The notes beneath the pieces were generated by a model. That model was given only the letters and a program-made list of their open reading frames with translations, ran no database searches and had not been told where the DNA came from. Shown piece by piece: positions 121 through 28,755 of a DNA stretch of 32,442 nucleotides (position 1 is the first letter of the stretch; the number at the start of each line of letters is the position of its first letter). Source of the DNA: a virus; the IMG/VR virus record IMGVR_UViG_3300027917_002087, positions 1 through 32,442 of that record; one strand, 5' to 3'. The translations under genes and the position numbers were made by a program.

Positions 121-347
121 AGCGATTCTAATTCCTCTATTGTCCATTCTAGTCTTAATACTTTTGCGTCTCTCAACATATACTCGAAAATTTGTCTTAC
201 TTCTTCTTCGTGTGGTATTCTGCCAATATCTTTTAGGTACACTTCTGTAATATTTTGAATACACTCATCCATGATGACCCACGGCTTAACTCCAGTAACA
301 AGCCCTGTTTCATTACCATTTTTATCAACTATCGCCATCCAGACCAC
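84..347 (-). CDS. small hypothetical protein, 87 residues
   Basis: I do not recognise this protein. It is acidic and probably soluble, with a helical C-terminal half (residues about 35-80) and no membrane segment. I chose the GTG at 347 because GGAGGT stands 5 bases upstream. The ATG at 338, three codons later, would put the same site about 14 bases away; further in-frame codons upstream have no better site. The start lies inside the 3' end of the glycosyltransferase gene and the end overlaps the RNA ligase start, so it looks translationally coupled in the leftward operon. Overlap on both sides and a good ribosome site make it likely real, with no clue to function. Confidence 0.6.
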   Translation of the reverse strand: MVWMAIVDKNGNETGLVTGVKPWVIMDECIQNITEVYLKDIGRIPHEEEVRQIFEYMLRDAKVLRLEWTIEELESLCKSTPTPPSMP

Positions 348-3300
348 TAAACACCTCCAATAGTTTCTGTTTGTCAGCCAGTTGCTCAATCTCGGGGAAT
401 ATCGCTTTCACCTCATTGAATTCGTCAAGCGCTTCTTTTATTCTAGCTTCTGCTATTAGAAGATCGATTAGCTCTACTCGAGCTTCCCACATTAGAGGAG
501 CGTTCTCTATAGCTTTCTTGTACCATTCGATAGCCTCCTCGCTTGCTAATTCCTGTGCTAGCATCTTTGCGTACGCATATTGTACCTCTGGCAGCTCCGG
601 CGCTAATCGCTTTGCCTTGCGAACTAGGGCGTTTCCAGCTTCCGTTCCTTTGATCTCTGCAGCTCTCTCTAGATTGTATCTAGCGTTGTACCAGGATTTT
701 GATACTTTTCCAAAGAACAAATCCTCATCACTTTTTACTCTATGCTTTGTCAGTAATTTGTTGAGGTTTTCTTCAAGATGCACGTATAATGTGTGATTCT
801 CATTCTCTGGCTTACTTGCTGATGAGTAATGATAAAATACTACTGGCTCATAGCGCACTTTATATCCCTTCTCGCGAGCGCGCCAGCATAAGTCCACATC
901 CTCATATACACCTTTGCCGAAGTCGCTATCCCAACCTTCTAGCTCAAGCCAAAGCTCTCTAGGGATCATCATCAAACCGCCAGTTACAGCATTCATGTAC
1001 TTTCTTTCATTCCCGCACTTCTCTGCGTCCCAACCTAAACAGGGATGATATGGAACACCATCATTGCGCCTGGTTACACCAATATGCTGTATCCTTCCCT
1101 CCAATGGGTGTTCTGGAGGAAATAGAAGCTTAGCTCCAACTATCTCATTGCCGTCAGGCAATATCTTCTCAAGCCAGCCATCCTCGATTGCTTCTATATC
1201 TGAGTTCATGAATAGAATATTCGGGGATGCTCCATAAGCGGCACCAATGTCTGTTGCGCCAAGAAAACCTCGATTTCTGTCTAGATTTATCCACAGTATA
1301 TTGGGGTATTTCTCATATTTCTCGATGAGGTGATCCATTGGCTCTGGAGACCTGTCATTTACAATGATGATGTTTACATTGCTAGTGGTGGCTAATACGC
1401 TGTCTACACACTTTTCGAGAAGATCGGGCTTTCCGAATGCTGGAATTACAATATCGCACTCTGCAGGTGGCGGTACGTTGGTTGCTATTGAAAGTGTATT
1501 TCTTTCTATCTCGGAAAGTCTTTTCTTAATCATCTTTCCGATTGCTTTGTGGCTGTAGTTGTCCTCTATGTACTTCTTTGCTATCTTTGCTTTCTTTGTA
1601 GCCAGGTCTTTATTAGAGTAAATCTCTTTCATGACTTCTGCTGCGTGATCTGTATCTGCATCAGCCCAAACGTTACCTTTTGTGTATGGAAAGTGATCCT
1701 CTTTTATATCTACAATTTCATAGTCCACAAGCCAGCTATTTTCATGGTTCATGAATTCCATGTTTCCGGAGTATGCAGTAGCCATCACTGGTACACCCAA
1801 TAGCATAGCCTCTGCCAGTCCTTGCCCAAATCCCTCGGATCGGTGTAGAGAAACAAAGCAATCTACGGATTTAGTCAATGTAAGCATTTCATACCAGCTC
1901 ATTGACCTGTTCCATATAACAATATTGTTATTATTTTGCGACGCGTCTAGTGTTGCTTTGTATTCCTTTTGATATGGTTCTGCGTTTATCGACTTTATGA
2001 TCAGCATAACATCTCTACTATCGCCAAAGGCTTTCTTGAATGCCTCTATAACGGCAAGAGGGTTCTTCCTCTGGAATACGCTAAAGTAGTCGAACGCAAA
2101 CAGGAATATAAACACGTCATCGCGCAGATTGAACATCCTTCTGTCAGGATTTATCTCTTTATCGATGTAAACTGTGTTTGGAATATTGTATGTTGGCAAT
2201 GGTGATACTTTTGCTATTGCGTCACGGACAAATTCACTTTTTGTCCATATTTCGTCATAAAATGCAAAGTATCTGTGCCATTCTTTAGGAAAGTCCTCCA
2301 GCTCCCAAAACCATAAACCAATATTGTATCTTTCCTCAAAATATTCATGACCAGAAAGATTGGCAAATACTCCTGTTTGGTCTGCGTTGATGTGTACAAT
2401 ATTTATACTGTATGGATTGTCGTCCGTAAATTCGTCATCAAACGTGCAGTCATCTGAACGTTGGACTTCACAGGATACATTATTTATCGCGTATGGAACA
2501 TCGGTGGTCTGTACCGCGAATACCGTATTTCTCGCAGCTTGACCTACCCCAAATACACCCTTCATGTATCCGGCTATATTGACACCAAAGTTCGGGTTCT
2601 CGTTTATTATTGGCATGAGCCTCCTTCCAAATATCGGGTCAATTCCTGTTACCTTAGTGTGTGTGTTGATCCAGCTTGCTATTATCCCAACCGTGTCTGG
2701 ATTTAGTTCTTTCGCTTGCTCTTGAAGCTCTGGAACGCGTTGCCATAGCTTGTACATAAGGTTCGATATTGGTAGTTTTTCTCCCGTATTGCTGTTTATT
2801 ACATCTGATCTTAGCCAGTGATAGAAGTTCCCCCAAGATATTGTATCGAACGGGTTTCCAAAGTATGATCCGTTAGGAAGGTTCCTATACACCATCCTGA
2901 TGAATTCCGATACCAGAATACCATTATCGAAATAGTCATACGCTGGTCTATGCTTTTGTACCTTGTCGTACCCATTACCAATCAGCAGCTGAGTGTACAT
3001 CTCGTAGATCGGCTTTATGTTTGGCAAATCCTCGAATGTAAATCTTTCCTGGTGTTTTGATATAACGTTATCATACGGGTCGTATCCACTAAAGTGAAAG
3101 AATTTTACCTTTTCCCCATAGAGGTATACTCCATCATCCTCTAAGGCTAACCCCTCTCCTCTCTCATGTAGATTCCAGTATGCAACATTGTATGCTGGTT
3201 CTCTCAGGATATAAGCCTCATCGTAGTAACACGGAACGTGGTCTATCCACTTTTGGTCTACGAATAACCCGTTCCTTGGCTCCATTAGACAGAATAGGTA

Positions 3301-3810
3301 TGTTCTGTTACTCCACCAGTCAAGAAACTTTGTAGTTTGGTGGCTTTGTGATACTCCTATAAACCCCAAATTGTATACTCCGCACATCCCCACATCCACC
3401 TCATTTTGCTTTCTCATATCGTTAGGTGGTTCTAGCATGTGAGGTGTTAGTATAATGCTCCACTCATTGAGAGTATCCCACAAATAATCCAACTTATCAC
3501 ACACCAAGATGTCTGGATCGAAGTATAAAACCTTGTTATGTCCTTTATCAAGAAGGAACTTTATAAAGTGAGGCTTTACTGCAGTAGCAAGCTCAATTGT
3601 TTTGTATTTGAAAAATAGGTGATTTTGATCGTATATTCCAATGTCTTTTGCATATACGACTTCGAATGGCTCATCGGTTATCTCCCCCTCGTCAATGAGT
3701 AGAACATAGAAATCAACGTCGGGTTCTAGTTCTCTTATTGATTTTGCCAGTGTTCTCGCTTGGGCTAGATAGTTTCTTGCGATAATCGTGAACGCGGCTT
3801 TTCCTTGCAT
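325..3810 (-). CDS. multidomain glycosyltransferase (GT8-like + GT4-like + GT2) with C-terminal TPR
   Basis: This 1161-residue protein strings together three sugar-transfer modules. Residues 1 to about 280 form a GT-A domain of the nucleotide-diphospho-sugar transferase type, with the metal-binding DPD at 98-100 (VLYFDPDILV). Residues about 400-780 form a GT-B domain of family 4 type, opening with a Gly-rich NIAGYMKGVFGVGQAARN loop and carrying the EGFGQGLAEA acceptor motif near 657-667. Residues about 784-1010 form a GT2 domain (DIVIPAFGKPDLLEKCVDS, NSDIEAIEDGWLEKI, then a GGLMMIP loop and VYEDVDLCWRA). Residues about 1040-1155 are TPR-like helical repeats that probably bind a partner or acceptor. 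No signal peptide or membrane segment is seen, so it should act in the cytoplasm. GGGAG precedes the ATG, and the sulfotransferase gene ends 9 bases upstream. Donor sugars and acceptor cannot be inferred. Confidence 0.9.
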   Translation of the reverse strand: MQGKAAFTIIARNYLAQARTLAKSIRELEPDVDFYVLLIDEGEITDEPFEVVYAKDIGIYDQNHLFFKYKTIELATAVKPHFIKFLLDKGHNKVLYFDPDILVCDKLDYLWDTLNEWSIILTPHMLEPPNDMRKQNEVDVGMCGVYNLGFIGVSQSHQTTKFLDWWSNRTYLFCLMEPRNGLFVDQKWIDHVPCYYDEAYILREPAYNVAYWNLHERGEGLALEDDGVYLYGEKVKFFHFSGYDPYDNVISKHQERFTFEDLPNIKPIYEMYTQLLIGNGYDKVQKHRPAYDYFDNGILVSEFIRMVYRNLPNGSYFGNPFDTISWGNFYHWLRSDVINSNTGEKLPISNLMYKLWQRVPELQEQAKELNPDTVGIIASWINTHTKVTGIDPIFGRRLMPIINENPNFGVNIAGYMKGVFGVGQAARNTVFAVQTTDVPYAINNVSCEVQRSDDCTFDDEFTDDNPYSINIVHINADQTGVFANLSGHEYFEERYNIGLWFWELEDFPKEWHRYFAFYDEIWTKSEFVRDAIAKVSPLPTYNIPNTVYIDKEINPDRRMFNLRDDVFIFLFAFDYFSVFQRKNPLAVIEAFKKAFGDSRDVMLIIKSINAEPYQKEYKATLDASQNNNNIVIWNRSMSWYEMLTLTKSVDCFVSLHRSEGFGQGLAEAMLLGVPVMATAYSGNMEFMNHENSWLVDYEIVDIKEDHFPYTKGNVWADADTDHAAEVMKEIYSNKDLATKKAKIAKKYIEDNYSHKAIGKMIKKRLSEIERNTLSIATNVPPPAECDIVIPAFGKPDLLEKCVDSVLATTSNVNIIIVNDRSPEPMDHLIEKYEKYPNILWINLDRNRGFLGATDIGAAYGASPNILFMNSDIEAIEDGWLEKILPDGNEIVGAKLLFPPEHPLEGRIQHIGVTRRNDGVPYHPCLGWDAEKCGNERKYMNAVTGGLMMIPRELWLELEGWDSDFGKGVYEDVDLCWRAREKGYKVRYEPVVFYHYSSASKPENENHTLYVHLEENLNKLLTKHRVKSDEDLFFGKVSKSWYNARYNLERAAEIKGTEAGNALVRKAKRLAPELPEVQYAYAKMLAQELASEEAIEWYKKAIENAPLMWEARVELIDLLIAEARIKEALDEFNEVKAIFPEIEQLADKQKLLEVFSGLDGDS

Positions 3811-3819
3811 ATCTTCTCC

Positions 3820-4530
3820 CTAAAATGCATACCCAAGGCAAGACAGTTCCTTGGAGTAGAGCTCTTTAAATATCTCGATGTGTACATCGCTCAATTCAGT
3901 TTTCCACTGGTTTTTCTCCCCGCTACGACAATGTATCCTCAGGTGGTTCCCTCTCCCTCTCTGTTTTTCTATTGTACTTTGTTCTATTGCTCTTTTGATT
4001 GTTCCGATTGCTGCTGGTTCTATACTTTGGCATAGATTATATAGTGTTTGCAACGGAGCATCTTTTAGAGCCTCATACTGTACTATATGTGATTTTCCCG
4101 TTAGTAGCCACTCCACCGATTTTGTTATGTGTTTGCCAAACCCCTCTTTTAGAAACTTCAGTGTTGTTGGACTATCTATTTCTTCTCCTATCATCACAGC
4201 CGATGGCATTTCCTTCCTTGGACGCGGCCACCCTGACTGATCCCACAGCGGGTACATTCTATTCACATAATAGTATAGTGATACAAATTCGTCGCCTGGA
4301 TGTCTTGTCGTTGTACATACAATTACATCATTCTCTTTCACCCAATCTAGTACCTTCTTTGTTGGGTTCCAGTGCTGTACAGAAACAAAGCTTTCTATTG
4401 ATCCAAGCCACCCCATATTATCCAGACTTGAATTGCGTGGCTGAGCCTCCTGAATATTATATATAAACATCAGGAGGTACTTCAGCCATACGTTACCAGT
4501 TTTTGGGCTACTTGCTATCAGTATCCGCAC
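3820..4530 (-). CDS. PAPS-dependent sulfotransferase
   Basis: A 236-residue protein with the marks of the cytosolic/Golgi sulfotransferase fold, which transfers sulfate from 3'-phosphoadenylyl sulfate to a hydroxyl or amine. The 5'-phosphosulfate loop is SSPKTGNVWLKYLL (residues 7-20, K10 in the place of the key lysine). A VQHWNP segment supplies a candidate catalytic histidine at 53. The 3'-phosphate motif is TTTRHPGDEFVSLYYY (R76 and S84). A late RSGEKNQWK segment resembles the C-terminal RKGxxGxWK loop. The start is GTG at 4530 with AAGGA about 9 bases upstream; it overlaps the upstream gene by 23 bases. The glycosyltransferase gene starts 9 bases after its stop, which suggests that the substrate is a glycan made by that enzyme. 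That link is inference; the family assignment is strong. Confidence 0.88.
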   Translation of the reverse strand: MRILIASSPKTGNVWLKYLLMFIYNIQEAQPRNSSLDNMGWLGSIESFVSVQHWNPTKKVLDWVKENDVIVCTTTRHPGDEFVSLYYYVNRMYPLWDQSGWPRPRKEMPSAVMIGEEIDSPTTLKFLKEGFGKHITKSVEWLLTGKSHIVQYEALKDAPLQTLYNLCQSIEPAAIGTIKRAIEQSTIEKQRGRGNHLRIHCRSGEKNQWKTELSDVHIEIFKELYSKELSCLGYAF

Positions 4531-5313: not shown

Positions 5314-5814
5314 ATGAAGAACCTAAGAAATATTAGAAATGCGCTTCCGTGGCTTTCAGGACTTATCTTGATTTTCGCCATGATCGCATTTGAAATGTTC
5401 AACTTCTCGTCAACGGAGTATGCCCTTCATGATCTGCTAGGAAATATATCGTTTGCAGGTCTTGAATGGGCTACTATTTTGGCATTAGCTTTCTGTGGTG
5501 TAGATTTTGCTGGAATTGCACGTATCTTTACCGCAGAACGTGGTCGCAATGAACCTCAAGAGGTCAAATTGTTGTTAATAGCCTGGCTTATTGCCAGTAT
5601 TTTCAATGCCGGATTGACCTGGTGGGGAGTGTCGCAGCAAATTGTTGCTCGCGGCGTTAGTCATCCCGTACTGCCACAGTCGTTACTTGTATGGGTGGTG
5701 CCAGTTGCTATCGCGTTGATTGTACTCATCTTACGTATTGTGCTGATAAATACATTCACATTTACGTTTGAGGCTTCTCGCAGAGTACACAAGGTAATGC
5801 CTACTACACGATGA
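5314..5814 (+). CDS. four-pass membrane protein of unknown function
   Basis: A 166-residue hydrophobic protein with membrane segments at about residues 12-31, 48-67, 87-105 and 122-145. The loop after the second segment holds ARIFTAERGRNEPQEVK. I know no enzymatic motif in it. GGGGAGG stands upstream of the ATG. It follows the holin by 21 bases and overlaps the HNH gene in an ATGA junction. The position next to a holin suggests a second lysis-membrane component (antiholin or spanin-like), but this is only a guess from context. Confidence 0.7.
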   Translation: MKNLRNIRNALPWLSGLILIFAMIAFEMFNFSSTEYALHDLLGNISFAGLEWATILALAFCGVDFAGIARIFTAERGRNEPQEVKLLLIAWLIASIFNAGLTWWGVSQQIVARGVSHPVLPQSLLVWVVPVAIALIVLILRIVLINTFTFTFEASRRVHKVMPTTR

Positions 5815-6146
5815 AGCGTATAGTAAACCCCGATTTGCTAAGTTGGGTTGTTGAGGAAAGAGACCGAGCCTGTTTGTATGGTTTCATGAGAGGAGACCCG
5901 TGTAGGTTTGGTCTCGACCCTCATCATATAATTCCGCGTTCTCAAGGCGGGGGAGACGTTGAGGACAATATCATTACCCTCTGCCGAAAGCATCATGACA
6001 TGGCTGAGGAACACAAAATAAAACCAGAAGAACTAAAATTGGTGTTAGAGGAGCTTTACGGCTATGGACGAACACAGCATTCTAGCTGGAAATACAGACG
6101 ACGTTTTAGGAATGTCGAGAAAGTCGCCAGAGAGAGAATGCCCTGA
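5811..6146 (+). CDS. HNH endonuclease
   Basis: A 111-residue HNH nuclease with the motif DPHHIIPRSQGGGDVEDNII then TLCRKHHDMAEEH. H38/H39, N53 and H61/H62 fill the His-Asn-His pattern of the beta-beta-alpha metal fold. Cysteines at 21, 31 and 58 may help fold it. HNH proteins encoded close to the large terminase are common in cos-type phages, where they are known to assist cleavage of concatemeric DNA during packaging; the closeness to the terminase gene here fits that role. It is translationally coupled to the membrane protein upstream (ATGA). A homing endonuclease is less likely because the gene is compact and collinear with the operon. Confidence 0.88.
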   Translation: MKRIVNPDLLSWVVEERDRACLYGFMRGDPCRFGLDPHHIIPRSQGGGDVEDNIITLCRKHHDMAEEHKIKPEELKLVLEELYGYGRTQHSSWKYRRRFRNVEKVARERMP

Positions 6147-6240
6147 ATGTGGTCATTCTGAGCAATACGAAGAACTTTTGTATCGCAGAACGCGCTATAC
6201 CTGCCTGAACGAGAATTGTGGTTTTGTTTGGGAAGAATGA
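6064..6240 (+). CDS. small zinc-ribbon protein, 58 residues
   Basis: A short reading that overlaps the 3' end of the HNH gene by 83 bases in another frame. The product ends in a zinc ribbon: CPECG (residues 26-30) and, about 17 residues later, CLNENCG followed by FVWEE. The spacing resembles TFIIS-like or small-terminase-associated ribbons. AGAGGAG lies 10 bases before the ATG at 6064. The ATG at 6112 would give a 42-residue version that keeps all four cysteines. Its stop overlaps the next start (ATGA), which supports expression. It could be a DNA-binding adaptor for the nuclease or terminase; this is inference from position. Confidence 0.7.
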   Translation: MDEHSILAGNTDDVLGMSRKSPERECPECGHSEQYEELLYRRTRYTCLNENCGFVWEE

Positions 6241-7103
6241 ACCTAGAAGAACTTACTCAGAGGGAAACGGACGCTTTTGAGCTTTATAGGGATAAATACG
6301 AGCTCCAGCACACTATACCCGAACCTCCAAGCACAAGAGGATTAGGCTGGCAATTCTATTTGCTTGTCCTAACCTCCCTTGCTGCTGTTATTTTGGCGGC
6401 TTTACGGACTGCAGAACAGTTTTATCTTGCCGCATCCCTCAGCGGAAGTCCAATATTCTCTCTAGCTGAGGCTATTGCCGCTATGATAGCGATTGAAGGT
6501 GGGATAGTAATCTATGCTGCTATTCGTGCTGAGAATAATAAGAAAGTATCCAACTCTACTCTAGGAATAGGAATATTCCTTATGGTGCTTATCTCTACGT
6601 TTGCTGGACTTGGACAATCCCTGCGCCTTATTGATAATATAAATACAGAGCTGATGATTTATTTTCAGTATGCTCTATCTATTGTTATTGGTGTTGGTGC
6701 TTCCGCGTTGGCTTGGATTGGTGGAGAAGTTTTGGGATCGCAAATTGCTAAGGTTGGTACATACAGTGAAATTGCTTATGACCACTATCAGCAAGAAGTG
6801 GAGAATTACAACAATCGGCTATTAGCCTCGTGGAATAACTCTTTAGAGAGACGTTCAATTAGAGGAGATTTTGTACAATCTGTACAAACTCCTGTACCGC
6901 GGTACAATGAGGGTACAGCTGAGGTACCAAAAACACAAGTTGTGTACCAGTGGCTTGACGATATGAACAGTGGGTGGACGCATGTGGACGATGTTCCTAG
7001 CGCTAGAGAGATTGAGAAGGAGCTGGAGCATCATAAAGTCGCTGTTAGTAGTGCTCAACGAGGACGCAACCGATGGATTAGGGAGAATTTGAACGGCAGA
7101 TGA
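6237..7103 (+). CDS. four-pass membrane protein with cytoplasmic tail
   Basis: A 288-residue protein. The start is the ATG at 6237, which overlaps the upstream stop as ATGA and has GGGAAGA right before it; a longer version from 6216 would lie inside the zinc-ribbon gene and is less likely. A charged N-terminus of about 35 residues is followed by membrane segments at about 38-60, 75-98, 110-128 and 140-165, then about 120 soluble residues ending in the basic AQRGRNRWIRENLNGR. I do not recognise the family. The 3' part of the gene carries a striking cluster of GTAC tetramers. It is coupled to the terminase by a second ATGA. It sits where a small terminase is often found but has no HTH, so I do not call it one. 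Confidence 0.75.
   Translation: MNLEELTQRETDAFELYRDKYELQHTIPEPPSTRGLGWQFYLLVLTSLAAVILAALRTAEQFYLAASLSGSPIFSLAEAIAAMIAIEGGIVIYAAIRAENNKKVSNSTLGIGIFLMVLISTFAGLGQSLRLIDNINTELMIYFQYALSIVIGVGASALAWIGGEVLGSQIAKVGTYSEIAYDHYQQEVENYNNRLLASWNNSLERRSIRGDFVQSVQTPVPRYNEGTAEVPKTQVVYQWLDDMNSGWTHVDDVPSAREIEKELEHHKVAVSSAQRGRNRWIRENLNGR
6873..6947. repeat. cluster of seven GTAC tetramers, candidate packaging or operator site
   Basis: GTAC starts at 6873, 6882, 6894, 6902, 6913, 6924 and 6944, so the steps are 9, 12, 8, 11, 11 and 20 bases, close to one or two helical turns. Several are extended palindromes (TTGTACAA at 6872, TGTACA at 6881). They fall in all three codon phases of the overlapping gene, so the protein sequence alone does not explain them. 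The cluster ends about 155 bases before the terminase start. Confidence 0.5.
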
Positions 7104-8614
7104 TACTAACTGATATAGATCGCAAGGTACTTCCAGCAGCTTTGAGAGCCAATGGAGGATTTCATCATGCTACTGAGTGGTATTTGAGAGGGTGGACACC
7201 AATTCCCTATCAATATGCCTGGCACAACGCCGCTCAGATGAACACAACGTTCTTGGCTGGTATTGCGTCCGGTAAAACAAACGTAGAAGCCGCCAGTATT
7301 GCAATTGATTGTATTTCTATTCCCTACTTTAGAGCATTATCTACCTCGGTTACAGCAAAACAGGCAGAGCTTCCATTCGATATGTTTATGGCTTGGTATG
7401 ATGGTAACGATCATCTTGAACATTTGATCCTAGACATAAAACTCAGACCGTGGCCTCTCATAAAATTCCAAAATTTCTCTGAATGGGAATTTAGGACATG
7501 CGGCATGGATGCCCGCTTCATCCGAGGATCGGAGTATGACCGCATCGCATACGACGAGTGCGGTCTTGACTTTGTGGGAGAGAGTGTAAAAACTCTGCGT
7601 GGTCGTCTGAGAGGAACAAGACCAGATAACACAAAGCGTATGGCAAGACTTGATACACTCACCTCGCCTACAGCAGCACCCTGGCTTGAAACACGCTTTT
7701 GGCGTGGAGTAAAAGGGCATGATACTGCAGATTTAGTAAAATACCTGTCATTTAAGGTCAAGACCAGAGATAATGTCATGCTCACCGAGGATCAGATAGC
7801 TTTGATGGAGGCTGAGTATACCGATCTTGATATTGACGTTGAAATGAATGCTGAGTTTCCTGATTATGGCATGTCCATGTTCCCCAAGAGACACATTAGC
7901 GCATGCACAGATCAGGGACTTAACGACATTGTTATGCTTGCTTTGAACCCAAGACTTTTAGATGATGGTGGTGGACATCCCAAAAAGGGATATGTTATGG
8001 AGGAACATCCTAGACATGGCTTGATGAAATTTGAAATGCCAAGAGAGCCAAAGGGTGTCTATATAATGGCTGGAGACCCTGGTATTGATGATCCTCCAAA
8101 GAGGAACGCTGGTGCTATTGGCGTTCTGGATATATCTAAGAAACCTGCGAAGATGGTTTATTTTGATTGGGTATCAGGACGTGGTAGCTATATGCCATTT
8201 CTGGATAGCTTTCGATATGCTATGAGCAAGTATACTCCTAGTATAAAGCTTCTTGATACAACAGGTCCTCAAAAGGCTATGCAGGAACTTGCGTTTGAGA
8301 ATTTGGGTATCGAAACAGATGCTATGAATTTTACAAGGGACAAAGACGCCGCCCTGAATTCGCTTAGCCTCGCCGTAAGTAATCATGAGATTAGCTGGCC
8401 TCTTGCTAAAGGTATTCAAAGGCAAATGTCCACATATACGCGAGAGAACGATAGAAAGTCTGGTTTCCCCCAAGATATTACAATGATGTTGGCTATGCTT
8501 GCTTTCGGAATGAGATATTCTCCCCAAGAGGTTGAGGATGATAAGCCGCCGAGACCGAGACGATACAGCCGAAAGAGACGCACAAGGCATACTAGAAGGG
8601 TGAAACGTGCCTAA
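7100..8614 (+). CDS. terL: terminase large subunit
   Basis: A 504-residue packaging motor. Residues 53-60 hold a Walker A-like AGIASGKT loop, and RIAYDECG at about 148-155 is the Walker B with its catalytic Glu (D152, E153). The C-terminal nuclease begins at IMAGDPGIDDP (about 322-332, first metal-binding Asp), with a further acidic strand at LLDTTGP. The length is in the usual 450-600 range. The last 25 residues are very basic (PRPRRYSRKRRTRHTRR), which may contact DNA or the portal. The start overlaps the previous gene as ATGA. The protein moves DNA into the prohead and cuts it. The small subunit partner is not recognisable nearby. Confidence 0.93.
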   Translation: MILTDIDRKVLPAALRANGGFHHATEWYLRGWTPIPYQYAWHNAAQMNTTFLAGIASGKTNVEAASIAIDCISIPYFRALSTSVTAKQAELPFDMFMAWYDGNDHLEHLILDIKLRPWPLIKFQNFSEWEFRTCGMDARFIRGSEYDRIAYDECGLDFVGESVKTLRGRLRGTRPDNTKRMARLDTLTSPTAAPWLETRFWRGVKGHDTADLVKYLSFKVKTRDNVMLTEDQIALMEAEYTDLDIDVEMNAEFPDYGMSMFPKRHISACTDQGLNDIVMLALNPRLLDDGGGHPKKGYVMEEHPRHGLMKFEMPREPKGVYIMAGDPGIDDPPKRNAGAIGVLDISKKPAKMVYFDWVSGRGSYMPFLDSFRYAMSKYTPSIKLLDTTGPQKAMQELAFENLGIETDAMNFTRDKDAALNSLSLAVSNHEISWPLAKGIQRQMSTYTRENDRKSGFPQDITMMLAMLAFGMRYSPQEVEDDKPPRPRRYSRKRRTRHTRRVKRA

Positions 8615-21651: not shown

Positions 21652-24600
21652 ATGGCTGGATATGATGACGAGATTGCGTCGCAATTCTTTGACGAAATTG
21701 CTCGTAGTGCCGTAGATTTAGACCAACCTACGCAGGAAAGACTGCGCAGGGATATTAGTGATGCATTCTACCGACAGGGTAGAGATGCGCTTGATATGCC
21801 TGTTAGTTATACTCCCTCGATGCGCGCCAGGTTCCCTCATGGCGAAGTCCCAACTACTGTTAGAGAAGCACAAGATTTATTAGTTCGTTCGCATTATCCA
21901 ATGTGGATCGATCAAGCTCGTCGCGAATATTGGCAAGGCGAGAACGCTATGGATGTGTTCCAAAGCCTTTCCACTAACTACATGGCTGGTCTTCAAGGTG
22001 CTACTCATAGACAAGTTGAGGGAAAGAAGGTAGCCGCTGAGCCCTCGTTCGGTCATTATAGTGCTTACTATGGGTATAAAGCCGAGAAGCGTGCTATGGA
22101 TACCCCATCTGGTACTATTGGAACTGATGCAATGGCAAGCATGGAGGAGGGAATTAAAATACCAGCTCAGTTCGATGATACCCCATATCATAAAGGCGCG
22201 GTAGAGAGTGTTGTAGATTCGTATACTGGCGAGGTTATTCGCAGCGATGAGCCTGGCTTCTTTGGAGATACTAGTGTTCCGTATCTACCAAAGGGACTAA
22301 GACCTAGCCAAGACTTATCTGAAAGACTTGAGGACATATATACTCCTCAGGATCAGCTTATTGGACCAGCTCAGTATTATGGTGTTTCCGGTACCGGAAA
22401 GAAGAGGCGTGTAACTGTTATTGACGATCCTCTTGCAGCTGCGCGTCAAGCTAATGCTGGCAGAGACCCCTATATTGGCGGAAGCGATTTAGCACTTACT
22501 GGACAACCAGCAATAGAAGATCAAATTTATTATGAGAGACCACAAGAAGAGCTAAGAGCAAAGCAACAGGACTTTGCTAATTATAGATATAGAAGGTATC
22601 TTGGTGTTGAGCTTGGCGCTCCAATGGGTAGAGGTTTTCGTTGGGGAGAACCTAGAGAGCTTCTCTATGGTGATCGACCAGAACATGCCGCGTATGATAT
22701 TGGTGATGTTGAGTTCATGCCAACAAGGTACACTGTTTCCCACACTGGCGATCTACCAGATTATAGACCATTTACACCACTCGGACGAATATTAACACAG
22801 TCCCTTCATGAAGTCTCTGGTAGTCCTCAGGCTGCGCTTCAGCGTTATATGGTTGGAAAATTCAATAGAGAGGGCTCAATACCTAGAGACGCATATAAGA
22901 AATGGGAGTTCGGCGCTCTAAAGAGTGGTAAGAAAGACCTCGTGAAAATGGTTAGGCAAGCCAAGAGGAGCTATGCTCAAGGTTGGTCTGCCGTTGAGGA
23001 ATATGAACAATCCGCAACTTATCTTAGTCACTACGATACAATTCTAAATGAAGGTAAAGAGTTTCCAGATACATTTGAGCTTCCACAAGAGGCTGCAAGA
23101 TCGAGACGTATAACAAGAGCTGGCGATATATATAATCCTGTATCCTCACAAACTCCCGCCATGAATACCAGTGCATTTGGACCCTATGCTCCACGACCAA
23201 GGTATAGCTTTAGCGAAATAGAGAGGGCTCCAGATGAGCAGGACTTTGTCTATGACTTTCCACCTGGCGGTGCGAGAAGTGTAAGAGGCGAGGCTCTTGG
23301 CAATCAACCATTGCCTAGAAAAGAATACTCCAGTCCACTTATATCTGACCTGGATGATCCTGTTGTTCCTGTTAATATTCCATTTGTAGAAAAACAAAGG
23401 ACTGTAAGAGAAGGAAAAGCTGGAGCGTACTACATTGACTACGGTTTTTCAAGCCCCTCTGCTGGTGCCGATCTGATGCGGAGAGAGGCTGAGAATATAA
23501 CACTTGATGAGTACAACGCCAGACAACAGCAAACTTTGCCTAGAAAAGAATACTCTAGTCCCCGTGTTTCTGACTTGGATGATACTGTTATTAGTGTCAA
23601 TATTCCATTTGTAGAAAAACAAAGGACTAGGAGGGGTTATAGTGGCGTATACATTGACTACGGTTTTTCAGACCCCTCTGCTGGTGCCGATCTGATGCGG
23701 AGACAGCATGGGATTGAAACACTTGATGAGTACAACGCCAGACAACAGCAACCTCCTGGAGGACAACAGCAATCTTCTGGAGGTGGTCAATTATTACTTC
23801 CAGAGAGAGTTCCTGGTGACGATTGGATACCTGGAGAAGAGGTATCTTGGGTTCCTTCTCATCTTGGTCAACCTCCCATTGGTCCTCCAGGACCTCCGGA
23901 GGAGCCTCCTCCAGGCTTCTTTGATGAACCTCCGCAAGGACCTGGTTCTGAATTTCAGGTTCACCCTGGATCAGCTGGACCTCTACGTCCTGAAGTTGTC
24001 GAGGCTGGCAGATTACTTGCGGAGGGTAAGAGTGTTGGTGCTTTCCTACCTCCTGGTTGGGGTAAAACAGCGTTCATCCGTCAAGCTCAGGTTGCCAGAG
24101 GGCAATCAATAAACATTCTAACAACGCCTCAAACATCCCTAAATAAAAGCTTGATGCAGAGACTTAGTAGCAATAATGTTCAAGCATTTTGGCTTCCTGG
24201 TGATCCTGGTGCTAATGCTCCAGAGGAGGCAGTTCGGGAGTATAGAGAGGCTCATTCAGCATTCTATAAGGCAATAAATGAATCAACTGAGGTTGTTGAC
24301 GGAGTACGAAGGTTTAAGCCTGGCGCTAAATCAATAACTGCAGTAATGTCTACAGAGAAGTTTGTTGGACTGGAGCACTCAAATCTTGGTCAAAGGCTGA
24401 TGGGATATTTTGATCAGGGGCTTGGTGGAACGACTACGTTTGACGAGTTTCAGGAGCTATTATCTACCTCTGCTGGTAGATATTTATTCAAGTATGCTGC
24501 TGATACAGCCGAGAAACTTGGATTGCCAGTCATGGCTACTGGTGGTACCCTTCCAGAAGATATTAGACCAAACGCAATCTCGGCTTTTGGTCTTGATAAG

Positions 24601-27600
24601 GTATATACAGAACCAATAGACCTGTCTCATATCCAGTTCAAAGTAAGAAATGCTCAGATGAAGGATTATCCTACCGTTGGTGCTGAGCTGTCTACTACTG
24701 GAGAGACACAGAGCTTTACCTATGGCTATAGTACGCGTCTTGTAGATCAAATTTATGAGGCTATCGGTGGTGCCGAAAATCCGCAAGCTGCACGTTATCA
24801 CAAGGGGCATGGTCTAGCTGGTCCTATTCCACAAGAGGAACTTCTAGAAACTGAAGAGCTTTTCACTAGCGAAACTGGCGGATTGCCAGAGGGACAAACT
24901 GTTGTTGGTTCTTCTGCTATGGGACTTGGTATTGACATCAACAATCTAAAACAGGTTTCGCAGATTGGTGCTGCTGATACTAGTGCGCTCCTCCAGCGTG
25001 CTATGAGGCTAAGAGCTTATCACGGAGGAGGAGAGTTCAACCTCGCTGTTGATCCACGACAATACTTCCAATGGGCTGAGGCTTATCCTAGAGATATGCA
25101 AGCTTTGACACCAACTGTACTGGCTGGCGCATATCAAAAGATAAAAGAGAGAGCTGGTACTTATGATCCTAACTGGAAGGTCATGTCTGATGAGATGCAG
25201 GAGGTCGCCGGAGAGTATCTTGAGGGTCTAGGAATAACAAAGTATCGATCTAAAGAAGCTCTTGATATTCTATCCGAGGCTGATTTTCTCAAATTCACAA
25301 CCTCGCCTGAAGGATATTCCACCTATCAGTTCGCCGCTGGTGGTCCTACAGATGTTCTCGCTCGTAAACTTGAGCAATCAACTTATCGACTTCCAACCGA
25401 TCCGCATGGAGAGCGTGTTGGTCTTACAGAATATAAACAAACTGTTGCAGGACTTCAACAGCGTGAGCTATCCTCTCTTGGTAGTCTTATGCAACAAACA
25501 CAAGGACTGCCGGAGGAAGATCGCGGTGCTATTGTAAAGCAAGCTCTCATGGAGAGCCAGAAGGGTCTAAGTGCTCTCGAAAGCTTTGTCAACATTGATG
25601 TTGCGAGGAGTGTACACGATAAGTATATAGAAGCTGTAAAGAAAGCCACTGAGCAATTTGCTGATATGACAGCTTCTGGTGCTGATGTTACTAGAGCACA
25701 GGAGCAATTTGGCGAGGCTATTCAGGGTGCTTATGACATAATTGTTAATAGTCCTGGTGCTCAGGCTATGGCGCAGACCACTGGTCAAGCTTACCTGGCT
25801 AGTCAAAGCCCACTAAATCAAGCTATTGGTCAAACTGTTCTATCTCAAGTTCAAACTGCCGCTGCTGCTGGCGTACCTGGTACTCCTGGCGGAGGCGGAG
25901 ACGATGGTAGTGGACGACCTGGTCGCGGCTTTATGAAAAGCCCTGGCGCAGCTGCATTGTACGGTCTTTATATGGCTCGTAGAATGTGGCAGTACACCAC
26001 AGCTCCTATTATGCAAGCTGGAGCTGAGTGGGCTGGACAAAACTTTGCTCCTCCAACAATGATAGGACAAATGCCCGAGGGTGACTATGGTTCCCTCATG
26101 GGCGGCTTTGCATACAGGCAGGCTATGGCTCAAGCTGCTGCTGGTCAAGCCACGTATGAGCAATTTGGCGCCTTTATGGAGCTTCCGTATGCCCTCTCAA
26201 GAACTGGTGGCGGTGGTGGAAGGTTCGCGGCTGCTACTCGTATGGGTATGGGTATAGCTGCTGGTGGTATTGAAGGTGGCATGGGTCTTAGCATGGCTTC
26301 TATGGCTATGGGTGGTGCGGCGAAGGGAGGTCTTGCTGCCACACTTGGAACACTTGGCGGAGCTCTTGCTACTGGTGGAATGTTAATTGGTGGCGCAACA
26401 ATGGTTGGTGGTTTTGGTCTTGAGCTGTACAATGCGTCACAAGGAACAAACTTAACCCTTGGCGATCTTTTCAAGGGTGGTTTATTCAATACAATCCAGG
26501 GAGATACTCTGATGGCTCAGCTTAACAACCGGCGAGTTGGTTTATATAATCCGCTCGACTTGTACTCGGTTGCTGGCAGAGAGAGACTGTTTGAAAGATT
26601 TGGCGGTTCTGAACAGCAGTTGTTTGAGGGTCTTCCTGAAAACATGCAAAATTACTATCGCATTCAGGGGCTAGCTGGTCAAGAAAAACAAGTCCGCGAT
26701 CTTGCAATGTCTATGGCTGGAGACCTTGGAGTTGACAATTTTGAAGGTCTTGTACCTTATATTACAGCCTTGACACGCGATACTGGTCAGTTCAATCCAG
26801 AGGCTATCCGTGGATTTATGGGAACTTCTGTAAGCCTTGGGTACTCTCCTTCAGAATACACCGGAATGTTTGGTCAAATTGCTGGTCAGCTTGGCTATGT
26901 TCCTGGCTCACAGCAGTACCGTGATTTGCTTGAGGAAATGACTGGTATTGGTCAAGTTGGTCTTTATAACCTCCAAGAACGAGCATCCAGAAATGCTCAA
27001 TTTGCAAGTCAGCTTGCTCCTACCATTGGTGGTCGTCGAGCTTCGGCTCTAAATCTTCAATCACAGGGCGAGACAACTGCTATTGCCTCGCTATTACAAC
27101 TCTATACCCAATATGGAGGTGATCCAAACCGAATTATGGGGGTGGAAGGAACTTCTGGACTTGCGGGTGCTTACCGCATGATTTATCCAGAAGAGGAGTT
27201 CCAGAACCTTCAGCAGCAGTACGGGACGCAGAGAATACAAGCTCTTTCCCCGTTCTTGCAAGGAGCGATGCAGTACGGAGTAAGCCCCAATTATCTAGGA
27301 CAAATGGTAGGTGGTCTTGGTGAGATGTTCTCGGGTATGTCTCCATACCAGATGTCACTTGCTGGACAAATTGCTGGTGGTGATCTGCGTGCTGCATCCT
27401 ACGCCTCTTATAACCAACCACAGATACTACAAACGCTAGGTATGGATGTAGCAGGATCGAGACTTTACGGTCCTGCTGGTAGACCTATCTATCAAACCTC
27501 CGGCGCTGATTTTATGCGGATGATGATGGCTCGTTCCGACGCCGGAATGGGAGCTGCTACTGCTGGACTTAGCGCAATCGGGAATATGGGTGTTTCCGAT

Positions 27601-28755
27601 GTTGGAATGATGTCCGCGTGGCTCAATGAAGGAACAATGGGCGCACAGATGTATGCCCGTGGGCGCCTAAATGAGCTTCAACAAGCCCAACTTGGTATTC
27701 AATTTTCACAGCTAAATCTTCAGAGAACTCACCTATGGGGTGGTGGTGCATGGACTGGCACACCCGCCGCTGGTTCACTTTGGGGATTAGAGGATCAACA
27801 AAGAGCTCTTGGTCATCGTTATCAGATGATGGGATTTGACCTGCAAGAACGCAGGATGGACGCCACTCATTCTTATCAGGATACAATGGCAGACATCCAA
27901 TGGCGTCGAATGCAGCAGGGTCAAGACTACCAGATGGATATGATGCAGATTGGTCGTCAGATGACACTACAGTCTCGCTCATACCAGGATCAGGTTAGAG
28001 GTCTACAGTGGGGATGGCAGCTAGAAGATTATGCCGACGAATCTCGCTTCCTAACTGGTAGGCAACGACGAGTTTCGGAACGCCAAATGCGGCGTCAGAC
28101 TACCCTCCATGAGCTTGAGGAAGAAAACATCCAAAAGATGCGCTCTCTTGAGGATCAACGGTACGAGCGCCAGAAAGAATATACAGAAGAAAACATGGAC
28201 CTCGAGAGAGAGGCTTTCGAGGCTCAGAAGAAGTACCGTGAGGAAATGCAAGCTATCGAGCGTGAGACGTTCGATAACAATAAACAGCAGTACCTCGAGC
28301 AGCGCGAGATACAAGAGAAGATTATTGATTTACAACGTCAGTATCAGGCTGACCAACTTGATTTACAGGAAGCTTCGCTTGCCAATCAGCAGGAGATGTT
28401 GGATATTCAGCAGGACCTTGAAAAGATCATGCAGACCTCTCAGAAAGCTTGGGAGGACATTGCTGGAGAGCTTGAACAAATCAATAGCTACAGTAATGTG
28501 GTTGAGATATTTGAGAAGTTCAAAGAGCTACTTAAAGAAATTGGCGCTGAGCCTGAAGAAAAGGAAGGTCCGTCCATTCCTCAAAGTCCCTACCGTCCAG
28601 ACGAACCGAGTGACGACGATGAAGATGGATACGATTTTGATACTGTAACATTGTTTGAAAGACCACTTGATGAGCGCCTAAACGTCATTGTAAAGATTGG
28701 AAATGAGGTATTCAAGGACTTTGTTATTGAGACAGTCGAAGGAGAATTAGCGTAA
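21652..28755 (+). CDS. tape measure protein with embedded RecQ-like helicase domain
   Basis: A 2367-residue protein in the tape measure position. Order: about 1-550, an unknown helical and polar region; about 554-700, a tandem duplication; about 700-775, a Pro/Gly/Gln-rich linker; about 783-1180, an SF2 helicase core of RecQ type: motif I LPPGWGKT (799-806), motif II TFDEFQ (929-934), motif III MATGGT (961-966), motif V SSAMGLGIDINN (1087-1098) and motif VI QRAMRLR (1115-1121, both arginines of RecQ GRAGR kept); about 1180-1400, helices; about 1405-1430, a Gly-rich linker; about 1515-1597, Gly/Ala/Met-rich hydrophobic segments as in many tape measures; about 2046-2283, a long coiled coil. Tape measures set tail length and leave with the DNA. 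DExH is replaced by DEFQ, so activity is uncertain. No Shine-Dalgarno precedes the start. Confidence 0.85.
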   Translation: MAGYDDEIASQFFDEIARSAVDLDQPTQERLRRDISDAFYRQGRDALDMPVSYTPSMRARFPHGEVPTTVREAQDLLVRSHYPMWIDQARREYWQGENAMDVFQSLSTNYMAGLQGATHRQVEGKKVAAEPSFGHYSAYYGYKAEKRAMDTPSGTIGTDAMASMEEGIKIPAQFDDTPYHKGAVESVVDSYTGEVIRSDEPGFFGDTSVPYLPKGLRPSQDLSERLEDIYTPQDQLIGPAQYYGVSGTGKKRRVTVIDDPLAAARQANAGRDPYIGGSDLALTGQPAIEDQIYYERPQEELRAKQQDFANYRYRRYLGVELGAPMGRGFRWGEPRELLYGDRPEHAAYDIGDVEFMPTRYTVSHTGDLPDYRPFTPLGRILTQSLHEVSGSPQAALQRYMVGKFNREGSIPRDAYKKWEFGALKSGKKDLVKMVRQAKRSYAQGWSAVEEYEQSATYLSHYDTILNEGKEFPDTFELPQEAARSRRITRAGDIYNPVSSQTPAMNTSAFGPYAPRPRYSFSEIERAPDEQDFVYDFPPGGARSVRGEALGNQPLPRKEYSSPLISDLDDPVVPVNIPFVEKQRTVREGKAGAYYIDYGFSSPSAGADLMRREAENITLDEYNARQQQTLPRKEYSSPRVSDLDDTVISVNIPFVEKQRTRRGYSGVYIDYGFSDPSAGADLMRRQHGIETLDEYNARQQQPPGGQQQSSGGGQLLLPERVPGDDWIPGEEVSWVPSHLGQPPIGPPGPPEEPPPGFFDEPPQGPGSEFQVHPGSAGPLRPEVVEAGRLLAEGKSVGAFLPPGWGKTAFIRQAQVARGQSINILTTPQTSLNKSLMQRLSSNNVQAFWLPGDPGANAPEEAVREYREAHSAFYKAINESTEVVDGVRRFKPGAKSITAVMSTEKFVGLEHSNLGQRLMGYFDQGLGGTTTFDEFQELLSTSAGRYLFKYAADTAEKLGLPVMATGGTLPEDIRPNAISAFGLDKVYTEPIDLSHIQFKVRNAQMKDYPTVGAELSTTGETQSFTYGYSTRLVDQIYEAIGGAENPQAARYHKGHGLAGPIPQEELLETEELFTSETGGLPEGQTVVGSSAMGLGIDINNLKQVSQIGAADTSALLQRAMRLRAYHGGGEFNLAVDPRQYFQWAEAYPRDMQALTPTVLAGAYQKIKERAGTYDPNWKVMSDEMQEVAGEYLEGLGITKYRSKEALDILSEADFLKFTTSPEGYSTYQFAAGGPTDVLARKLEQSTYRLPTDPHGERVGLTEYKQTVAGLQQRELSSLGSLMQQTQGLPEEDRGAIVKQALMESQKGLSALESFVNIDVARSVHDKYIEAVKKATEQFADMTASGADVTRAQEQFGEAIQGAYDIIVNSPGAQAMAQTTGQAYLASQSPLNQAIGQTVLSQVQTAAAAGVPGTPGGGGDDGSGRPGRGFMKSPGAAALYGLYMARRMWQYTTAPIMQAGAEWAGQNFAPPTMIGQMPEGDYGSLMGGFAYRQAMAQAAAGQATYEQFGAFMELPYALSRTGGGGGRFAAATRMGMGIAAGGIEGGMGLSMASMAMGGAAKGGLAATLGTLGGALATGGMLIGGATMVGGFGLELYNASQGTNLTLGDLFKGGLFNTIQGDTLMAQLNNRRVGLYNPLDLYSVAGRERLFERFGGSEQQLFEGLPENMQNYYRIQGLAGQEKQVRDLAMSMAGDLGVDNFEGLVPYITALTRDTGQFNPEAIRGFMGTSVSLGYSPSEYTGMFGQIAGQLGYVPGSQQYRDLLEEMTGIGQVGLYNLQERASRNAQFASQLAPTIGGRRASALNLQSQGETTAIASLLQLYTQYGGDPNRIMGVEGTSGLAGAYRMIYPEEEFQNLQQQYGTQRIQALSPFLQGAMQYGVSPNYLGQMVGGLGEMFSGMSPYQMSLAGQIAGGDLRAASYASYNQPQILQTLGMDVAGSRLYGPAGRPIYQTSGADFMRMMMARSDAGMGAATAGLSAIGNMGVSDVGMMSAWLNEGTMGAQMYARGRLNELQQAQLGIQFSQLNLQRTHLWGGGAWTGTPAAGSLWGLEDQQRALGHRYQMMGFDLQERRMDATHSYQDTMADIQWRRMQQGQDYQMDMMQIGRQMTLQSRSYQDQVRGLQWGWQLEDYADESRFLTGRQRRVSERQMRRQTTLHELEEENIQKMRSLEDQRYERQKEYTEENMDLEREAFEAQKKYREEMQAIERETFDNNKQQYLEQREIQEKIIDLQRQYQADQLDLQEASLANQQEMLDIQQDLEKIMQTSQKAWEDIAGELEQINSYSNVVEIFEKFKELLKEIGAEPEEKEGPSIPQSPYRPDEPSDDDEDGYDFDTVTLFERPLDERLNVIVKIGNEVFKDFVIETVEGELA
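23311..23751 (+). repeat. tandem duplication of 75/72 residues within the tape measure gene
   Basis: Unit 1 (23311-23535) and unit 2 (23536-23751) both begin LPRKEYSSP and share VNIPFVEKQRT, IDYGFS, SAGADLMRR and TLDEYNARQQQ. Large blocks are identical at the DNA level, so the duplication is recent or kept alike by gene conversion. It stands just before the Pro-rich linker that leads into the helicase domain. Confidence 0.85.

Follow-up and report, generated by a model that had tools for sequence, protein, structure and literature searches.

A helically phased GTAC array in the codons of a putative membrane and helix-turn-helix protein, upstream of the terminase gene of an uncultivated phage, is a candidate binding site for that protein

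The packaging site pac of phage P1 spans 161 bp within pacA and contains seven TGATC(A/G) hexamers (PMC10028697). The locus studied here has a similar layout, i.e., seven KGTACM hexamers with a palindromic tetramer core in the coding sequence of a predicted DNA-binding protein (6237-7103), upstream of the large terminase gene. However, the P1 hexamers are of the GATC/Dam type, with cleavage controlled by adenine methylation of the core, and extend over 161 bp, and PacA is not known to be a membrane protein, whereas the array here follows an optional helix-turn-helix (HTH) gene that is missing from most relatives of the terminase. Noc of B. subtilis, whose mode of action resembles the one proposed here, binds DNA and brings its sites (NBS) to the membrane (PMC4331003, PMC8429893); it is a CTPase with an amphipathic helix and 16-bp NBS scattered over the chromosome, whereas our locus combines four predicted transmembrane (TM) helices with one array within the gene. 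RocS of Streptococcus pneumoniae is a membrane-anchored protein linking DNA to the membrane (PMC11500499, PMC13042908), and p16.7 of phi29 is a phage integral membrane protein proposed to bring viral DNA to the membrane (PMC4974454). The latter differs from our system in that it works via the terminal protein and ssDNA, without a site array. RocS is a cellular protein with a C-terminal membrane anchor, and we know of no array embedded in its own gene. The SOS box of Gram-positive LexA is CGAAC-N4-GTTCG. The proteins described below show weak sequence similarity to LexA in the HTH, and relatives of the window use the same CGAAC half-site; however, these proteins lack the peptidase part, their half-sites are mostly everted and clustered, and the window uses GTAC.

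The window is the whole stretch of viral DNA that was analysed, 32,442 nucleotides in length. The features around the array are as follows.

5811-6146, plus strand: HNH endonuclease; its place 5′ of the terminase is conserved throughout the family.
6112-6240, plus strand: zinc-ribbon protein of 42 aa (CPECGH...CLNENCG), directly 5′ of the array-bearing gene.
6237-7103, plus strand: array-bearing gene, 288 aa, with four predicted N-terminal TM helices and a C-terminal HTH (hydropathy, AlphaFold2, homologues).
6348-6737, plus strand: region coding for the four TM helices (about residues 38-167), assigned by hydropathy and conserved in homologues.
6873-6947, no strand: array of seven palindromic GTAC tetramers, encoding the linker and the first part of the HTH region (residues 213-237).
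6930-7088, plus strand: residues 232-284, predicted to form a C-terminal HTH domain of three helices (mean pLDDT 87 in AlphaFold2).
7100-8614, plus strand: large terminase, 504 aa, with Walker A AGIASGKT and IAYDE; about 53 uncultivated relatives.

The array-bearing gene has an ATG that overlaps the zinc-ribbon stop codon, and at its other end it overlaps the start of the terminase gene. The encoded protein is arranged as four hydrophobic segments, a helical stretch, the linker encoded by the array and an HTH of about 55 residues. Because the full-length AlphaFold2 model was poor (pLDDT 55), the membrane part rests on hydropathy. Searches of Pfam, PHROG and NCBIfam returned no match for the array protein or the terminase. 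When the HTH model was compared with the PDB using Foldseek, the best matches included several GntR-type HTH regulators, none of them significant (E of at least 0.9), and searching PDB sequences with a profile of the HTH yielded only weak matches, SinR being the best (E of at least 0.37). One family member showed a sub-threshold match to LexA_DNA_bind (E = 0.0012); no LexA DNA-binding domain scored above the curated cut-off, the best being 18.0 bits against 23.7 (L006), and the window gave no match. The HTH assignment at the C-terminus of the array protein is a prediction from AlphaFold2 and such sub-threshold matches.

Other features of the window were recorded as well. Two minus-strand genes, one for a 1161-aa protein with domains of glycosyltransferase families 1 and 2 (325-3810) and one for a 236-aa sulfotransferase (3820-4530), are likely cargo for modification of the host or virion surface. 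GGCC is strongly depleted across positions 1-32442 (5 observed, 61 expected from trinucleotides) and TTAA moderately so (46 against 89.5 expected), which is possibly restriction-site avoidance. Two tandem 219-bp copies with 85% matches (23311-23751) lie within an open frame of 2367 aa (21652-28755).

The seven GTAC tetramers start at 6873, 6882, 6894, 6902, 6913, 6924 and 6944, in steps of 9, 12, 8, 11, 11 and 20 bp, and fall in all three codon phases, just as an earlier note on this DNA had described them. That note placed them upstream of the terminase gene; they do lie 5′ of it, but within the coding sequence 6237-7103 and 3′ of the TM part, not at a free upstream site. All seven match KGTACM, compared with 48 of the 134 GTACs in the window. 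The total of 134 against 139 expected from trinucleotides rules out genome-wide enrichment of GTAC, and a count along the genome, as the note had advised, found the array to be the sole run in the whole window of more than three GTACs with gaps of at most 30 bp. Among 4-mer clusters in the 32 kb window, the GTAC array is the strongest; TTGG also attains seven copies per 75-bp span elsewhere in the window.

We asked how far the array could be due to chance or be a by-product of a linker rich in V-Q and V-P. Val-Gln or Val-Pro codon pairs account for four of the seven GTACs, and the choice of GTA alone suffices at those sites. However, with the protein fixed, synonymous codon resampling of the 25-residue stretch yielded seven GTACs in only 4 of 200,000 trials (mean 1.9). 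Permutation of synonymous codons over 26 genes (n = 400) gave at most five GTACs per 75 bp, and no palindromic tetramer reached seven copies per 75 bp in the 400 genome-wide permutations, in line with the earlier view that amino-acid or codon choice does not explain the cluster. The array is also helically phased, with R = 0.84 at 10.5 bp and a best value of 0.91 near 10.25 bp (p ~0.0015); the proposed spacing near the helical repeat was thus borne out, at about 10.3 bp. Homologous arrays at the same place in relatives, described below, lead us to reject chance or linker composition, which is barely credible as an explanation.

The terminase core retrieved four relatives as a query, and later alignments extended these to more than 50 viral loci and two bacterial loci, one of which is an Anaerolineae MAG. 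An exact-peptide search for direct relatives (whole membrane protein, terminase, portal) returned none. No homologue of the window terminase or membrane protein was found in the cultivated phages or plasmids searched; likewise, none was found for L065, L057 and L042 in cultivated phages or for L057 in plasmids. A search of 396 genomes of the L016 host class, run without a positive control, found no homologue of the membrane protein.

Complete membrane-HTH homologues occur in L006, L008, L019, L065, L064, L057 and L049/L052. L042 and L061 carry the same HTH behind a membrane part of a different family, and the HTH loci of L050, L059 and L063 are truncated by contig ends. Where present, the HTH gene is always upstream of the terminase. 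In the closest terminase relative (L002, 73%), the zinc-ribbon gene immediately precedes the terminase gene, i.e., the slot between them is empty; other small DNA-binding-like proteins fill this slot in L025, L067 and the SAP-like L031-L035, that of L067 being a small stand-alone HTH protein without an array. On the terminase tree, the presence of the HTH requires about seven changes, at least five of them on well-supported branches, so the association between HTH and array has survived several gains or losses. Elsewhere in the records the HTH domain was found only in a fusion adjoining the membrane-HTH gene of L064 (4514-4996), where a GIY-YIG homing-endonuclease-like protein has the same C-terminal HTH as its neighbour; this protein may have borrowed the array-binding domain. 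At Walker A, the terminase frame of L008 (5992-7953) is interrupted in frame by about 150 extra residues, which start with CVSGDTPI and end with INHN before SGKT; this insertion looks like an intein.

The earlier note had suggested looking for conservation of the cluster in relatives, and comparable arrays, beyond synonymous codon choice, were found at the homologous position. Nine independent relatives have an intact fused HTH gene (L006, L008, L019, L065, L064, L057, L049, L042 and L061), and in each of them the linker before the HTH carries an array of CGAAC/GTTCG. These linkers hold 4-17 copies, which occupy all three reading frames and both strands; GTTCG is often found to the left and CGAAC to the right, and the motif encodes unrelated peptides such as NERTN and SSFGS. 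Across ten genes, the 4-17 motif copies in the linker compare with 0.3-2.7 expected by synonymous resampling (all p <= 0.0042). Eight HTH-bearing records of 23.8-75 kb were scanned, six whole and two up to 60 kb; each contained exactly one run of at least four CGAAC/GTTCG, always in the HTH linker, and 39 HTH-less loci (368 kb) contained none. Counting the GTAC array of the window as the tenth, an array is present in 10 of 10 intact fused HTH genes and in 0 of 33 loci that lack the HTH and have 1 kb or more of upstream sequence (Fisher 5e-10, a value overstated because the loci are treated as independent despite shared ancestry). Between L057 and L049, conserved residues use identical codons in 8 of 10 cases in the array vs 47% in the gene before it, in a small sample. 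The HTH and array are retained where the membrane half belongs to another family (L042, L061). Helical phasing like that of the window is not seen in the CGAAC arrays, in which 4-bp steps are common. Host LexA sites were considered and rejected, as CGAAC-N4-GTTCG occurs in only one of the nine arrays (L006) and the window has GTAC.

A general phased array before every terminase was also sought and rejected, with only isolated cases found (L003 AATT, L032/L033 CGATAC, L054 ACAATA). In L003, an HTH-less relative, five AATT lie 9-11 bp apart in non-coding DNA just before the terminase (3845-3890), making this a second phased array of palindromes. In L032 (1559-1627; the same in L033), four CGATAC/GTATCG lie in the linker of a gene that ends at the terminase and has a SAP-like C-terminus; their siblings L031, L034 and L035 have no strong array.

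The arrays also differ with the type of HTH. CGAAC arrays are accompanied by the HTH type PGPSEIAREVGVSKSYAS. The HTH of the window is unlike this common type and resembles that of L059 only, with which it shares a diverged form (VPSAREI...SSAQ.GR.RW; 44% identical). The window contains no CGAAC run, and in the partial L059, where the contig start truncates the array, TGAACA occurs three times and GTTCA once. The array cores are GAAC in the CGAAC type, GAAC in L059 and GTAC in the window, with differing flanks. Motif and HTH subtype thus change together, as direct recognition predicts, with the second subtype having only two members, one of them truncated by its contig. This sequence comparison suggests that the window holds a specificity variant of an HTH-array system. 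Taken at the sequence level, the comparisons show an array that is selected as DNA, goes with the HTH gene from one relative to the next and differs in motif where the HTH has diverged. The element is, judging from these comparisons, most likely a cis site of the HTH protein of its own gene, and we consider it highly probable that the encoded HTH binds the array.

The leading idea of the earlier note was a pac or cos-associated packaging initiation site, with an operator for the terminase as the alternative. We considered the former with the HTH protein as a small terminase that marks the genome, like PacA at P1 pac; such a role would reveal a membrane-bound packaging specificity factor. Besides the P1-like layout, the proximity of HNH and terminase genes, the constant upstream position of the HTH gene and the other small DNA-binding-like proteins in the same slot are in its favour. 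In addition, contig ends are weakly over-represented near the site: they lie at most 300 bp upstream of the terminase in 5 of 53 cases (L050, L051, L059, L063 and L068, three of them HTH-bearing) vs 1.24 expected (p = 0.009, uncorrected), although most contigs continue straight through the site; the ends near the array could be genome ends or assembly breaks. A terminase family should, however, retain its recognition partner, and the array and HTH gene are absent from 33 relatives whose upstream DNA spans 1 kb or more, none of which has a CGAAC run, with the qualification that contigs are fragments and a gene absent from a record need not be absent from the virus. The closest relative, L002, is among those without the array, and the distance from array to terminase varies from 0.15 to 2 kb among relatives, with unrelated genes in between; these two facts weaken the packaging reading. 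A small terminase is expected to be a small soluble protein with HTH and oligomerisation parts, conserved beside TerL, whereas the array protein is a predicted polytopic membrane protein with four TM helices, and its gene is missing from most terminase relatives. Packaging is thus an unlikely purpose. The array tracks the HTH gene and not the terminase, and HTH-less relatives lack it, which argues against both the packaging site and the terminase operator as the leading reading; what stands of the earlier interpretation is a phased, DNA-level array that probably serves a DNA-binding protein.

The same site could act as an auto-regulatory operator or transcriptional roadblock, at which the membrane HTH protein, bound within the gene that encodes it, would restrict read-through into its own coding sequence, the terminase gene and the late operon. 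An intragenic array in a co-oriented gene string before the late genes would suit this role, repeated half-sites suit cooperative binding, and a weak promoter-like match overlaps the array. However, the array is not at the start of the gene but some 630 bp inside it, and how far away the next gene lies is highly variable. Repression does not call for a conserved membrane part, but the HTH and array occur with two different membrane modules. We regard auto-regulation as doubtful, although it ranks ahead of packaging.

An effect at the RNA level, i.e., a hairpin, or a tetranucleotide slippage tract that phase-switches the HTH domain, is very improbable. Half-sites on both strands can pair, and several arrays fold better than shuffled sequences (z of -4.0 in L057 and -3.5 in L064), but L008, L061 and the window do not stand out (-0.8, -1.5 and -1.5, respectively), and a conserved hairpin was rejected because the predicted topologies are not common to the arrays. 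Some arrays contain (GAAC)3-4 tracts that could slip. Simple-sequence slippage was also rejected, as the window sites are 8-20 bp apart and not tandem, and the runs of copies are short, interrupted and on both strands.

We favour a self-binding array with membrane fastening as its most likely outcome, and give this explanation as a whole a probability of roughly 55%. The array in its own gene would be the binding site for the encoded protein of four TM helices, linker and HTH, whose HTH domains may occupy adjacent sites along the same helical face, with steps near 10 bp. Since the linker makes few demands on protein sequence, its codons can accommodate DNA sites. Bound in this way, the array would fasten the phage genome to the cytoplasmic membrane just before the terminase and late genes. 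Fusion of the HTH to a membrane domain makes fastening the most likely outcome; the four hydrophobic segments and the HTH (pLDDT 87), both predictions, place a membrane segment and a DNA-binding domain in one protein. The fact that a membrane half is kept even when its family changes also favours fastening of DNA to the membrane. Membrane tethering of the phage genome therefore ranks first among the purposes, followed by auto-regulation and packaging, with the remainder going to others; as a specific purpose, tethering is uncertain and falls somewhat short of an even chance. More tentatively still, these loci may represent a previously undescribed phage DNA-anchoring system, in which the gene of a polytopic membrane protein that ends in an HTH holds the binding array of that protein in its linker codons, the membrane module is swappable, HTH and array are kept, and the motif changes with the HTH (CGAAC, TGAACA, KGTACM).

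The locus would be a protein-DNA partner system whose site lies within the codons for the binding protein itself, in uncultivated phages and with no cultivated homologue found. As the gene carries the array of its own HTH, protein and site travel as one unit, and because each virus holds both partners in one gene, a change in binding specificity can be read from sequence alone. If tethering is true, the system would offer a minimal one-gene model for the placing of phage genomes at the membrane during replication or assembly.
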